DNA from: an uncultured Gammaproteobacteria bacterium
Lineage (GTDB): Bacteria; Pseudomonadota; Gammaproteobacteria; HK1
Assembly: GCA_947258715.1 (NCBI GenBank)
Contig: CAMYJH010000023.1
Coordinates: forward strand, 1-64,000
Reading direction: 5' to 3'
Length of the DNA stretch: 64,000 nt
Part shown: piece after piece, positions 5,079 through 37,383 of the stretch
How positions within the stretch are numbered: position 1 is the first letter of the stretch
Layout of the letters: every line of letters starts with the position of its first letter
Translations under genes and position numbers: made by a program
The notes under the pieces: model-generated
Databases searched by the model: none
What the model was told of the DNA's origin: nothing
What the model saw: the letters and a program-made list of their open reading frames with translations, nothing else

Positions 5079-5094
5079 CTGTATAAAAATACAG
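5079..5094 (+). promoter_or_regulatory. LexA (SOS) box upstream of dnaE2
   Basis: CTGTATAAAAATACAG matches the gammaproteobacterial LexA consensus CTGT-N8-ACAG, with an A/T-rich centre. It lies 13 bp before the ATG of dnaE2, so LexA bound here should block transcription or initiation directly. Confidence 0.88.
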
Positions 5095-5107: not shown

Positions 5108-8100
5108 ATGGCCAAAAACCACCCAGTCCCCGGCTACGCCGAGCTGCACTGCCTGTCCAACTTCAGCTTTTTAAGGGGTGCCTCACACCCGGAGGAACTG
5201 GTCCTGATGGCGGCGAAGCTCGGCTACGCGGCCATCGCCATCACTGACGAGTGCTCTCTGGCCGGCGTGGTGCGCGCGCACCTGGCGGCGAAGGAAGGCG
5301 GGATTCAGCTCATTGTCGGCAGCGAGGTGAAGCTTCGCGAGGGGCCGAAGCTGGTGCTGCTGGCGACTGACCGGGCAGCCTACGGCCGCCTCTCGGGGCT
5401 GATCACCACAGGACGCCGGGCGGCGGAGAAGGGCAGCTACCATCTCGGCCTCGAGGATCTGGACAACGGCCTCGAAGGCTGCCTGGCGCTGCTGATTCCC
5501 GAGGTTGGGAAAAGGGGTCGGACACCTTTTTCGAACACCTCTTTTCAAGTTCTACAACAGGGGAAAACGAAAAAGGGCTCTGACCCCTTTTTCCTTGCTG
5601 CGGATCCCGAAAAGAGCGCTTCGAAAAAGACGTCTGATCCTTTTTTCATCCGCTGGCTGAAAGAGCGCTTTCCCGAACGCGCGTGGATCGCCTTCGAACG
5701 CCACCTGGACGCTAGCGACGCACACACGCTACAAGAGCTTAAAAGTCTGAGCGCGCAAACCGGCCTGCCGCTGGTGGCCGCCGGCGACGTGCACATGCAC
5801 ATGCGCGCACGCCAGCCGCTCCAGGATACGCTCACCGCGATACGTCTGGGTCTGAAAGTGGCCGAGGCCGGCTTCAATCTGTTTCCCAATGCCGAACATC
5901 GTTTGCGCAGCCGCCCGAGGCTTGCCCGGCTCTATCCCCGTGCGCTGATGGAAGAAACCCTCGCCGTCGCCGCGCGCTGTCAGTTTTCATTGGACGAGCT
6001 GCGCTACGAGTATCCGGAAGAGATTGTACCGGTGGGCAAAACCCCCGCCGAGCACCTAAGGCAGCTGGTGGAGATCGGACTTCGCCGCCGTTTTCCCGGC
6101 GGCGCGCCGGAGAAGGTGCGGGTTTTGATCGAGCGCGAGCTGGAGCTGATTGCCGAGCTTCGTTACGAGCCTTACTTCCTTACCGTCTATGACATTGTCC
6201 GCTTCGCTCGCGAGCGCGACATCCTCTGCCAGGGGCGCGGCTCCGCCGCCAACTCCGCGGTGTGCTATTGCCTCGGCATCACCGAGGTGGACCCCGCGCG
6301 CATGGAGATGCTGTTCGAGCGTTTCATCTCCAAGGAACGCAACGAGCCGCCGGACATCGACGTGGACTTCGAGCACGAGCGGCGCGAGGAGGTGATCCAG
6401 TACATCTACGAAAAATACGGGCGTGACCGCGCCGCCATCGCCGCCACCGTGATCCGCTACCAGCCGAGGAGCGCGGTGCGCGACGTGGGCAAGGCGCTAG
6501 GACTCGCTCCGGCCCAGGTAGATCGTCTGGCGAAGTCGCTGGCCTGGTGGGACGGCAAGCGGGTGCTCAAGGCGCGCTTTAAGGAAGCGGGTTTGAATCC
6601 TGAAACTGCGGTGATGGGCAGGCTGGCGAAACTGGTGGGAACGCTGATCGGTTTTCCCCGGCACCTTTCCCAGCACACCGGCGGCTTTGTCATCGCCAGG
6701 GGGGCGCTTTCGGATCTGGTGCCGGTGGAGAACGCCGCCATGCCGGAGCGCACGGTGATCCAGTGGGACAAGGACGATCTCGACGCCTTAGGCCTGCTCA
6801 AGGTGGACGTGCTGGCGCTCGGCATGCTCACCGCCATTCGCAAGAGCTTCGGCCTGATCGAAGCCTATCGCGGCACGTCCCTATCCATGGCCACGGTGCC
6901 GGCGGAGGACCCAGCCGTCTACGAGATGATCGGCCACGCCGATACCGTGGGCGTGTTCCAGATCGAGTCCCGCGCGCAGATGGCCATGCTGCCGCGGATG
7001 AAGCCCAAGTGTTTTTATGACCTCGTGATCGAGGTGGCCATCGTGCGCCCGGGGCCGATCCAGGGCGGCATGGTGCACCCTTACCTGCGCCGCCGGCAGG
7101 GGCTCGAGCCGGTGAGCTACCCTTCCGAGGCGGTGCGCGGCGTGCTGGAGCGCACTCTGGGCGTGCCCATCTTCCAGGAGCAGGCGATGCAGCTGGCGGT
7201 GGTGGCGGCGGGCTTCACGCCGGGCGAGGCGGATCAGCTGCGCCGGGCAATGGCGGCGTGGCGAAGACGCGGGGGCTTGGGCCCCTTCGAGGCGCGGCTC
7301 ATCGACGGCATGCGCCAGCGCGGCTACTCGGAAGCGTTCGCCCGTCAGATCTTCCGCCAGATCGAGGGCTTCGGCGATTACGGTTTTCCCGAATCCCACT
7401 CGGCGAGCTTCGCTCTATTAGTATATGTGTCCGCCTGGCTCAAATGTCACAAGCCCGCGGCCTTCACCTGCGCGCTGCTGAACAGCCAGCCCATGGGTTT
7501 CTATGCGCCCGCTCAATTGATTAACGACGCTCGCCGCCATGACGTTGAGGTACGCGGCGTGGACGTCAACTTGAGCGCCTACGACTGCACCCTGGAACGG
7601 GGCGAGTGCGGCGCGCCCGCGGTGCGCCTCGGCTTTCGCATGGTCAAAGGATTGGCGGAAGAAAGCGCCGGACGCATCGTCTCGGCACGGATAGGAAAAG
7701 GGGTCGGTAAAAGGGGTCGGATCCCTTTTTCGAACGCCTCGCCCCGGAATCGGCAACAGGAGAGAGCGAAAAAGGGCTCTGACCCCTTTTGCCTTTTCGA
7801 TTCGGTGGAGGACTTGGCGCTGCGCGCAAAGCTCTCCCGCAGCGAGATGAAGCTGCTAGCCCAAGCCGGCGCGCTCGCCGGAATCGCCGGCCACCGCCAC
7901 AAGGCCGCATGGAAGGTCACGGGGGTGGAAGCGCCAACGCCGCTGATGAAGCAGCCGCGGGTGGCCGAGGGCACGCCGCTTTTGCGTTCACCCACGGAAG
8001 GCGAGGATCTCGTCGCCGACTATCAGACCATCGGGCTCACTTTAGGGCGGCATCCGCTGGAGCTGCTGCGAAAGCGTTTCGATCGCATGCGGCTCTGCAC

Positions 8101-8413
8101 CGCCGCCGACATCAACGTGACCCATCACGGCACTTTTGCCCGCGCCGCGGGCCTGGTGATCAACCGCCAGCGACCCTCCACCGCCAGCGGGGTGATCTTC
8201 GTCACCCTCGAAGACGAGACCGGTCAGATCAACCTGGTGGTGTGGCCCTGGGTGGCGGAGCGCCAGCGCCGGGTGGTGCTGCAAGCGCGATTGCTCGTCG
8301 CCAGCGGCACCGTCGAGCGCGACGGCGAGGTGGTGCACCTGATTGCCGGGCGGCTGGAGGACCACAGCCGGCTGCTGGGAATGCTGGAGACTAAGTCACG
8401 GGATTTTCAGTGA
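5108..8413 (+). CDS. dnaE2: error-prone DNA polymerase DnaE2 (ImuC) with two in-frame repeat insertions
   Basis: An 1101-residue alpha-subunit-type polymerase for damage-induced translesion synthesis. The PHP domain is N-terminal (YAELHCLSNFSFLRG..., ITDECSLAG). The palm holds PPDIDVDFEHERRE near residue 416 and LKVDVLALGML near 565, supplying the catalytic aspartates, and a C-terminal OB fold contains GVIFVTLEDETGQINLVV. A LexA box precedes it, but no imuA or imuB lies in the window, so the usual cassette is absent. Two insertions of about 30 residues (around residues 135-180 and 867-895) share KRGR-PFSN and KKGSDPF; they come from the same palindromic DNA repeat and fall in linkers, leaving catalytic motifs intact. 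Confidence 0.93.
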   Translation: MAKNHPVPGYAELHCLSNFSFLRGASHPEELVLMAAKLGYAAIAITDECSLAGVVRAHLAAKEGGIQLIVGSEVKLREGPKLVLLATDRAAYGRLSGLITTGRRAAEKGSYHLGLEDLDNGLEGCLALLIPEVGKRGRTPFSNTSFQVLQQGKTKKGSDPFFLAADPEKSASKKTSDPFFIRWLKERFPERAWIAFERHLDASDAHTLQELKSLSAQTGLPLVAAGDVHMHMRARQPLQDTLTAIRLGLKVAEAGFNLFPNAEHRLRSRPRLARLYPRALMEETLAVAARCQFSLDELRYEYPEEIVPVGKTPAEHLRQLVEIGLRRRFPGGAPEKVRVLIERELELIAELRYEPYFLTVYDIVRFARERDILCQGRGSAANSAVCYCLGITEVDPARMEMLFERFISKERNEPPDIDVDFEHERREEVIQYIYEKYGRDRAAIAATVIRYQPRSAVRDVGKALGLAPAQVDRLAKSLAWWDGKRVLKARFKEAGLNPETAVMGRLAKLVGTLIGFPRHLSQHTGGFVIARGALSDLVPVENAAMPERTVIQWDKDDLDALGLLKVDVLALGMLTAIRKSFGLIEAYRGTSLSMATVPAEDPAVYEMIGHADTVGVFQIESRAQMAMLPRMKPKCFYDLVIEVAIVRPGPIQGGMVHPYLRRRQGLEPVSYPSEAVRGVLERTLGVPIFQEQAMQLAVVAAGFTPGEADQLRRAMAAWRRRGGLGPFEARLIDGMRQRGYSEAFARQIFRQIEGFGDYGFPESHSASFALLVYVSAWLKCHKPAAFTCALLNSQPMGFYAPAQLINDARRHDVEVRGVDVNLSAYDCTLERGECGAPAVRLGFRMVKGLAEESAGRIVSARIGKGVGKRGRIPFSNASPRNRQQERAKKGSDPFCLFDSVEDLALRAKLSRSEMKLLAQAGALAGIAGHRHKAAWKVTGVEAPTPLMKQPRVAEGTPLLRSPTEGEDLVADYQTIGLTLGRHPLELLRKRFDRMRLCTAADINVTHHGTFARAAGLVINRQRPSTASGVIFVTLEDETGQINLVVWPWVAERQRRVVLQARLLVASGTVERDGEVVHLIAGRLEDHSRLLGMLETKSRDFQ
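5509..5592. repeat. in-frame palindromic repeat element in dnaE2, copy 1
   Basis: About 83 bp with two hairpin arms: AAAAGGGGTCGG-ACACCTTTTT (5510-5531) and AAAAAGGG-CTCTGA-CCCCTTTTT (5570-5592), separated by a middle containing CGAAC-CCTC and CAACAGG. The same arms with the same spacing (58 bp from arm-1 start to the CG before arm 2) recur at 7708-7791. A further arm-like hairpin, AAAAAGACGTCTGATCCTTTTT, lies at 5622-5646. All are in frame with dnaE2. Confidence 0.85.
7708..7791. repeat. in-frame palindromic repeat element in dnaE2, copy 2
   Basis: The second copy of the 83-bp element: arm 1 AAAAGGGGTCGG-ATCCCTTTTT, middle with CGAACGCCTC and CAACAGG, and arm 2 AAAAAGGG-CTCTGA-CCCCTTTT. A partial arm-1 duplication (GAAAAGGGGTCGG) lies just before it at 7694-7707. 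It separates IVSAR from the DSVEDLALRA helix of dnaE2 and keeps the reading frame. Confidence 0.85.
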
Positions 8414-8593
8414 AGGGAGAGATCAATACCCACTCTTAAGATGAGCCGTCGCTCGGTTTTGCCAAGCGACATCATGATGGAGCGATATCGCAAGGATGCG
8501 ATAAATGGAAAAACTTTCTGCGGGCAGGGACGCTTGCTCGGTTTCGGACAGCGCGAGGCACTACGAGCGCCGGCGCCCCCATGACTACGCGCA

Positions 8594-8621
8594 GGGCGCA
8601 ATAAGCGAAGCGCATTGCGCC
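8594..8621. repeat. REP-like palindrome, left member of an inverted pair
   Basis: GCGCAATAAGCGAAGCGCAT followed by TGCGCC. The ends GCGCAAT/ATTGCGC pair with each other, and the unit is repeated in opposite orientation at 8801-8828. The 190 bp between the two members contain no recognised gene. Confidence 0.6.
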
Positions 8622-8800
8622 GTACTGTATTTCCCGCGGCGCTGTTGTGCCGACCATCGCAGCTCCGTCACCAAACGTGCGTAATTGAATGAGGCGAAGA
8701 GAAAACCGAGCATCATCCACCAATCGGCGTTGCACCATTATCGACACGCAAGAATATCTGTTTCATCGAGAGCCATGTAACGCCGAATCCGAAGACATCC

Positions 8801-8828
8801 GGTGCAATGCGCTTCGCTTATTGCACCC
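8801..8828. repeat. REP-like palindrome, right member of an inverted pair
   Basis: GGTGCAATGCGCTTCGCTTA then TTGCACCC, the inverted counterpart of 8594-8621. It immediately precedes the point where the truncated IS481-type transposase homology begins and supplies the first codons of that reading frame. Confidence 0.6.
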
Positions 8829-9835
8829 TACGCGTGCTTGCGGACCGCTCGCGTGCGCCGCAGCGGCATCCGAATGAGACCCCCAAGGAACAGGTGGCGC
8901 AGATTCTGGCCTTGAAGCGCCGCCATCCGCACTGGGGACCGGTGACCTTGCGCGATTGGTTGCGCCGGGAGCGGCCCAACCAGGCGTGGCCGGCGGCGAG
9001 TACGTTCGGTGCGGTCCTGAAGCGTCACGGGCTGGTGCGCCCGAGGCGCCGCCGACGCCACACGCCGCCGCACACGCAACCCTTTGCCCGGATACGGGCG
9101 CCCAACGATACCTGGAGCGCGGACTTCAAGGGGCACTTTGCCCTGGGCGATGGGCGCCGCTGCTGGCCACTGACCGTAAGCGACAACTTCAGTCGCTATC
9201 TGCTCTGTTGCCAGGGTCTCTACGGCCCAAAGCTCAAAGCCACACAGCGCGGGTATGAGCGCTGTTTCATCGACTACGGCCTGCCGCGCGTCATCCGTAC
9301 CGACAATGGCTTTCCCTTTGCCGCGCCGGCCCTGGGAGGCCTGACGCCGCTCAGTGTGTGGCTGTTGAAGCTCGGCGTGCTTCCGGAGCGCATTGCCTCG
9401 GGGAAGCCGCAACAAAACAGCCGGCATGAACGCTTGCATCGCACCCTCAAGGCAGCCACCGCCACGCCACCGAAGGCCAATCTCAGTGCGCAGCAGCGCG
9501 CTTTTAATCGGTTTCGTCCCGAATACAACGAGGACCGCCCGCACCGAGCCCTGGGCCAGGGGCAGCGTCCGGCGGACTGGTATCGGCCCTCGCCGCGGGC
9601 CTATCCGTCGCGCCTGCCGGAGGTGGTCTACCCCGACGCGTACGCAGTGCGCAAGGTGAAGTGCGGTGGCTATATGAAGTGGCATGGGCAGATGGTCTAC
9701 GTCACCAAGTATTTGCTCGGGGAACATGTCGGCCTTAAGCCGCTGGAACACGACCGCTGGGAGCTGTACTTCTGCCAATTGCCATTGGGCGTCTTCGATG
9801 AAAGACTCGGCAAAATCATCCGATGCCCCGGATGA
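8807..9835 (+). pseudogene. IS481-like transposase lacking its N-terminal helix-turn-helix
   Basis: A 342-codon frame with an integrase-type DDE core: D in WSADFKGHF, D in RTDNGFPF, E in HERLHRTLK, plus the family segment YNEDRPHRALGQ. Homology starts at DRSRAP (about codon 13), which in complete elements follows a helix-turn-helix region of roughly 40-50 residues. Here that region is replaced by codons read from the REP-like palindrome. The catalytic domain is therefore intact but the DNA-binding start is missing, and the gene is probably inactive. It could be translated from the new ATG as a shortened protein. Confidence 0.75.
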
Positions 9836-32918: not shown

Positions 32919-33051
32919 GAAAAAGGGGACGCACTTATTTTCCGGAAATCAGGCGAAGAAAAATGCGAACAGCGGAAAGGAAAATAAGTGCGTCCCCTTT
33001 TTCCGTCCCCTTTTTCGGCCTGAAAGGAAAATAAGTGCGTCCCCTTTTTCG
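32919..33051. repeat. three-arm palindromic repeat cluster (GGGGACGCACTTATTT type)
   Basis: GAAAAAGGGGACGCACTTAT plus TTTCC (32919-32943) is inverted at 32979-33004 and again at 33026-33051. Extra CGTCCCCTTTTTCG pieces follow up to 33080. The design (short arms, A- and T-rich ends, GGGGAC core) resembles REP/BIME clusters linked to RAYT transposases, but no transposase gene is nearby. It is a different family from the GGGGTCGGA repeat in dnaE2. Confidence 0.8.
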
Positions 33052-33113
33052 TCCCGCGTCCCCTTTTTCGCCGCTTTTTCGCCGGCTTTTTCCGGCTGGC
33101 TCCGACGAGACAT

Positions 33114-35181: not shown

Positions 35182-35207
35182 CGAAAAAGGGCTCTGAAGC
35201 CTTTTTC
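35182..35207. repeat. single arm of the dnaE2-type palindromic repeat
   Basis: CGAAAAAGGGCTCTGAAGCC then TTTTTC differs at two positions from arm 2 of the dnaE2 elements (5568-5592 and 7767-7791). It shows the repeat is dispersed and not limited to dnaE2. The DNA from 35208 to 35536 holds no gene that could be supported. Confidence 0.7.
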
Positions 35208-37317: not shown

Positions 37318-37383
37318 GACGGGGACATTCAGAGTTCCTAGGCTACTGATTTTAAGAAAGGGCTCTGTCCCCATTCTTGTTTT
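37318..37383. repeat. palindromic repeat copy with GGGGACA/TGTCCCC ends
   Basis: GACGGGGACATTCAGAG and, 26 bp later, AAAGGGCTCTGTCCCCATTC form an imperfect inverted repeat. The GGGCTCTG core matches arm 2 of the dnaE2 repeats. It sits between the HprK-PqqD gene and the STAS-like gene. Confidence 0.55.

Follow-up and report, generated by a model that had tools for sequence, protein, structure and literature searches.

Two palindromic dimers inserted in frame in the dnaE2 gene of an uncultured gammaproteobacterium are likely to be TIRYT-type elements

The dnaE2 gene and its genomic context

The window analyzed here is a stretch of 64,000 nucleotides from the genome of an uncultured gammaproteobacterium of the HK1 lineage (contig CAMYJH010000023.1). 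It carries a dnaE2 gene, encoding an error-prone DNA polymerase III alpha homologue, as a single open reading frame of 1101 amino acids on the plus strand (5108-8413). Matches to Pfam identify PHP, Pol3 alpha, finger, HHH_6 and OB domains in the protein. The columns that are invariant in an alignment of 29 sequences, among them the acidic residues of the active site, are preserved in it, in agreement with a sequence-only reading of this locus that had judged the catalytic motifs to be untouched. The same reading took DnaE2 for an essential-type polymerase, which it is not: a separate DnaE1 is encoded elsewhere in the host genome (C2:118759-121890).

Upstream of dnaE2 is a CTG-N10-CAG site (CTGTATAAAAATACAG, 5079-5094, plus strand) which, from the known LexA consensus, we take to have a LexA-like role. 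Host contig C3 carries imuA- and imuB-like genes, so named from size and sequence and not from a family search. Because of these genes and the LexA-like site, dnaE2 is probably functional.

The ImuB-like protein (L414 499-2064, contig C3) contains an unusual stretch, KQKRGEGPFFNS, whose coding DNA is flanked by A/T runs. The stretch is possibly what remains of a palindromic insert that has decayed, and the gene is given in part as N. A second dnaE2 C-terminus fragment, 76-82% identical and containing a stop codon, is present at C30:2845-3154 as a dnaE2 remnant. Just 3' of dnaE2 itself are 36-bp inverted repeats rich in GGCGCAATA (8587-8622 and 8800-8835). They resemble the GTAGGGCGCAATAG repeats around a Y1 gene at C39:202 (L036), and an integrase-like transposase open reading frame adjoins them.

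Two inverted dimers share one reading frame

Two palindromic copies of the same element reside in frame within dnaE2, as had been noticed from the sequence alone. Copy 1 (5510-5591, plus strand) consists of arms at 5510-5533 and 5568-5591 separated by a spacer at 5534-5567, and is translated as KRGRTPFSNTSFQVLQQGKTKKGSDPF. Copy 2 (7709-7790, plus strand) has arms at 7709-7732 and 7767-7790 and a spacer at 7733-7766, and is translated as KRGRIPFSNASPRNRQQERAKKGSDPF in the same frame. Each unit thus comprises a 24-nt arm A, a 34-nt spacer and a 24-nt arm B. The unit size and spacing, put at 83 bp and 58 bp in the sequence-only reading, are corrected to 82 bp and to 61 bp between arm starts. The arm palindrome is AAAAGGGGTCRGANCCCTTTTTCG, and arm B approximates the reverse complement of arm A in both dimers. 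The two copies are identical at 66 of 82 positions; their arms are almost identical and their spacers agree at 20 of 34 positions. When folded as single-stranded DNA, the dimers give z-scores of -5.1 and -5.3, and none of 200 shuffled sequences is as stable.

A search of the window for AAAAGGGNTCNGANCCCTTTT with three or fewer mismatches returns six matches, compared with 0.03 expected from shuffles, and four of these make up the two dimers. A third arm proposed to follow copy 1 is present in frame at 5622-5647 (plus strand, translated KKTSDPFF). It is degenerate, with three mismatches, forms a hairpin no better than shuffles, and is probably a separate insertion. Single arms had also been placed near 35182 and 37318, outside dnaE2. 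The former is found at 35185-35205 (plus strand, one mismatch), but the latter (37321-37372) is a lone repeat from a different family, GGGGACATTCAGAGTTC, members of which flank a Y1 gene on contig C14 (L033).

Directly before copy 2 is a tandem 13-bp partial arm, AAAAGGGGTCGGT (7696-7708, plus strand). Here the gene has gained a net 31 codons (93 bp); the partial arm appears to have contributed to this length, such that the frame was kept. No clear target-site duplication is seen by eye at either dimer, where A/T runs blur the boundaries.

The dimers are insertions that encode loops within domains

Both segments are absent from every one of the approximately 105 DnaE2 relatives compared. When 106 DnaE2 proteins, that of the window included, are aligned, site 1 spans 64 amino acids in the window protein versus mostly 20-35 in the relatives shown, and site 2 spans 51 versus mostly 17-25. 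No sequence similar to either insert occurs at these sites in the relatives shown. Ordinary conserved protein sequence is thereby ruled out. With the arm also found elsewhere in the host genome and in other genomes of the class (see below), the earlier view that the segments are repeat insertions is upheld.

The inserts had been assigned to linkers between domains. Insert 1 instead lies inside the PHP region, at the end of the part that matches the PHP profile. Insert 2 splits the HHH_6 domain, for which only profile positions 2-46 of 90 are matched in the window protein, versus 1-90 of 90 in two relatives. In an AlphaFold model built with 29 sequences (mean pLDDT 77), residues 134-173 and 864-892, corresponding to the inserts, have pLDDT values of roughly 26-46 within an otherwise folded protein and are its two longest disordered segments. 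Given this placement and the predicted disorder, the inserts are probably disordered loops within domains, not interdomain linkers.

Assignment to a repeat family

The reverse strand of arm B, GGGGTCAG, fits the GGGGWSAS consensus, and arm A, GGGGTCGG, departs from it by a single base. GGGGWSAS TIRs flank the TIRYT class of Y1 transposases (Di Nocera et al. 2013, PMC3733652), which probably corresponds to subclass 2.1 of PMC6006769. The GTAG tag is absent at both arms of the dimers, which rules out a classical GTAG REP, and the palindrome does not end in a CGTC tag.

The dimers have in common with the TIRtrons and TIRYT repeats of that 2013 account the GGGGWSAS motif, self-complementary variants, a dimeric arrangement and the flanking of Y1 genes. 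Unlike those repeats, they lie within coding sequence, and no Y1 gene carrying the exact dnaE2 palindrome was found in the host assembly, which lacks about 5% of the genome. They also share two inverted REP-like hairpins and a short spacer with the REPINs mobilized by RAYTs, but lack a GTAG tag and have a very low copy number for the subtype (two full copies). Rickettsia palindromic elements resemble them in being palindromic repeats translated in frame within functional genes. However, the dnaE2 dimers carry no CGTC tag, differ in sequence and lineage, and number only two full copies. The proposal that they are akin to the Rickettsia elements in kind therefore gives way to the TIRYT/GGGGWSAS type, which fits.

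Related repeats and Y1 transposases

The sequence-only reading had called for a search for further copies and a RAYT transposase. A BLAST search of the host with copy 2 recovers copy 1 as the sole other full copy, and the remaining hits are single arms. No further full dimer of this subtype was found in the host or in 16 genomes of the family, so its mobility is not seen directly. RAYT-like transposases are present, as six profile matches to Y1_Tnp. Three of the Y1 genes have TIRs of related type: ATCAATAGGGTCAGAGTCG on contig C56, AGGGACATTCAGAGTTCG on C14 and AAAAGGGGACGCACTTATTT on C39. The C56 gene has its own 32-bp TIR, which contains GGGTCAGAGTCG. The dominant repeat of the host is AAAAGGGGACGCACTTATTTT (the C39 type), with 64 arms, and it flanks the C39 Y1 gene. 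This family is concentrated on a few contigs, for example C39, C63 and C40, and has a cluster in the window at 32921-33067. Weak arms should not be counted, because the loose pattern KCNGACCCCTTTT with one mismatch gives 79 matches versus 72 in a reversed control. The dimers have no Rfam match above threshold, and a related dimer has no match in a plasmid collection.

Across the class, the arm is present with at most one mismatch in 13 of 369 genomes including the host, while the control gives no matches. Four other genomes (G200, G201, G189 and G323) contain 79-82-bp dimers of the same palindrome. In G189 (L272), a Y1 gene is flanked by inverted AAAGGGGTCAGAGCC and AAAGGGGTCAGAGCCCTTTA, about 780 bp apart. 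This gene has one premature TAG, and its protein is 52% identical to the host C56 Y1.

Origin of the dimers

The fit to GGGGWSAS, the dimers in other genomes of the class and the flanking of a Y1 gene elsewhere are best explained if the dnaE2 dimers are non-autonomous TIRYT-type mobile elements. We consider it likely that they are, and that they survive as neutral in-frame loops. The source element, unable to move autonomously, would have consisted of two palindromic terminal repeats of GGGGWSAS type joined head to head, 82 bp in all. A Y1 (HUH/tyrosine, IS200-like) transposase of TIRYT type, belonging to the host or to an ancestor, would have moved it into dnaE2, probably as single-stranded DNA. 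Most insertions of such elements into genes would be lost. Those in dnaE2 may have persisted because the frame was kept, the loops are floppy and at the surface, and an SOS polymerase is dispensable, such that the protein still folds. The second copy could have come from a further insertion or from copying of the first.

Within this mobile-element origin, a single transposition followed by intragenic duplication or gene conversion, from copy 1 to copy 2 or the reverse, is possible, if somewhat doubtful. The genome has only two full copies, which share a spacer and an orientation, and their BLAST alignment runs slightly into the flanks. A random second landing in the same gene would also have had to find about 3.3 kb in 4.9 Mb. 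However, the two sites are unrelated in sequence outside the element and have separate partial arms, as expected from serial insertions, and other members of the family may have been lost. A Rickettsia-type origin, in which the dimers would be CGTC REPs, is extremely improbable. The behaviour is the same, since the 2013 study describes in-frame palindromes within repair genes, but the dimers fit GGGGWSAS and lack the CGTC tag at the palindrome end, and it is GGGGWSAS-type repeats, not CGTC repeats, that flank Y1 genes in that account. Retention of the hairpins as regulatory RNA or DNA structures in the dnaE2 message would agree with their strength in single-stranded DNA. This too is very improbable, since they lie inside an open reading frame, are not conserved in relatives and, as noted, score below threshold in Rfam.

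The sequence-only reading favoured a repeat selected to be translatable. Two same-frame copies in one gene could be taken that way, or as peptides exapted to modulate DnaE2, for example through partner binding or mutation rate. The unrelated palindromic inserts in other DnaE2s (see below) and a precedent for repair-gene bias point in the same direction, and Di Nocera et al. speculate along these lines for repair genes (PMC3733652). Of the six frames, however, three and five are open in the dnaE2 copies, compared with none to five in intergenic dimers of the same general kind and 3.2 in random genomic 82-mers. These counts are no higher than those of intergenic dimers or random DNA, so the dimers could stay in frame without any particular selection on the repeat. 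The spacer-coded peptides have also diverged, and the inserts are predicted to be disordered. A survey of the genome (the window and about 0.5 Mb in stretches chosen around matches) took in 57 element clusters, and a position deep within a recognized long gene is seen for just the two in dnaE2. A short match in a membrane-protein open reading frame (L300:10151) is of chance type and not a dimer. This distribution argues against a general use in coding sequence. With dnaE2 the sole gene affected in the part surveyed, selection for translatability or exaptation appears quite improbable. The dimers are better regarded as TIRYT-type elements that dnaE2 has tolerated.

Palindromic inserts in other DnaE2 proteins

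Other DnaE2s also contain palindromes in frame. In another gammaproteobacterium (L120 5001-8429, JADZEE010000081.1, genome G135), a near-perfect GGGGTCAGAGTCG inverted dimer, homologous in type to the host dimers, lies near residue 488. One DnaE2 (L141) has a CACCAAG hairpin, and another (L091, on G030:C25) has GTAGGAGCGACTTCAGTCGCG repeats. In this protein, two REP dimers of GTAG type and one hairpin of the CCCTCTCCC type lie in frame, with approximately 130 extra residues. Hairpins of the CCCTCTCCC type also occur in frame in L123 and in several DnaE2s from Gallionellaceae.

Clearly palindromic in-frame inserts are found in 5 of 118 DnaE2s, that of the window included, versus none of 73 DnaE1s (p=0.09). 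This count depends on the criterion, which was tightened between surveys: 9 of 106 were scored initially and 6 of 118 after duplicates were removed, and a flagged tandem-repeat case (L080/L355) was then excluded by eye. Private in-frame inserts of at least eight amino acids are present in 32 DnaE2s versus 5 DnaE1s from the same two sets (p=0.0003), which are incompletely matched by genome. Most simply, insertions would be better tolerated in DnaE2 than in its essential paralogue DnaE1. Alternatively, unrelated palindromic elements could land in DnaE2 repeatedly across Proteobacteria, favoured by the single-stranded DNA of the SOS response or by a benefit of changed mutagenesis and not by tolerance alone, but we regard this as unlikely.

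Intragenic REPs, including some in DnaE2, have been known since 2013. Di Nocera et al. describe GTAG and CGTC REPs within repair genes, DnaE2 among the targets (PMC3733652). Like the dimers studied here, those are in-frame palindromic dimers; they encode 20-30 amino acids and sometimes occur twice per gene, as in uvrA. The tagged repair genes are sometimes the sole tagged open reading frames of a species, which the dnaE2-only placement echoes. In contrast to those GTAG- or CGTC-tagged repeats, the dnaE2 dimers are of the TIR (GGGGWSAS) type, and the main text of that study reports no intragenic repeat of this type. A TIR-type dimer present twice in one gene appears to be new, as do the unrelated palindromes that other DnaE2s carry in frame (about 5 of 118). 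The tagging of DnaE2 and other repair genes found in 2013 is thus independently repeated, and a TIRYT-type repeat joins the elements able to become protein-coding. The side survey of DnaE2 proteins makes it testable whether this polymerase is targeted by such elements or is merely tolerant of them.
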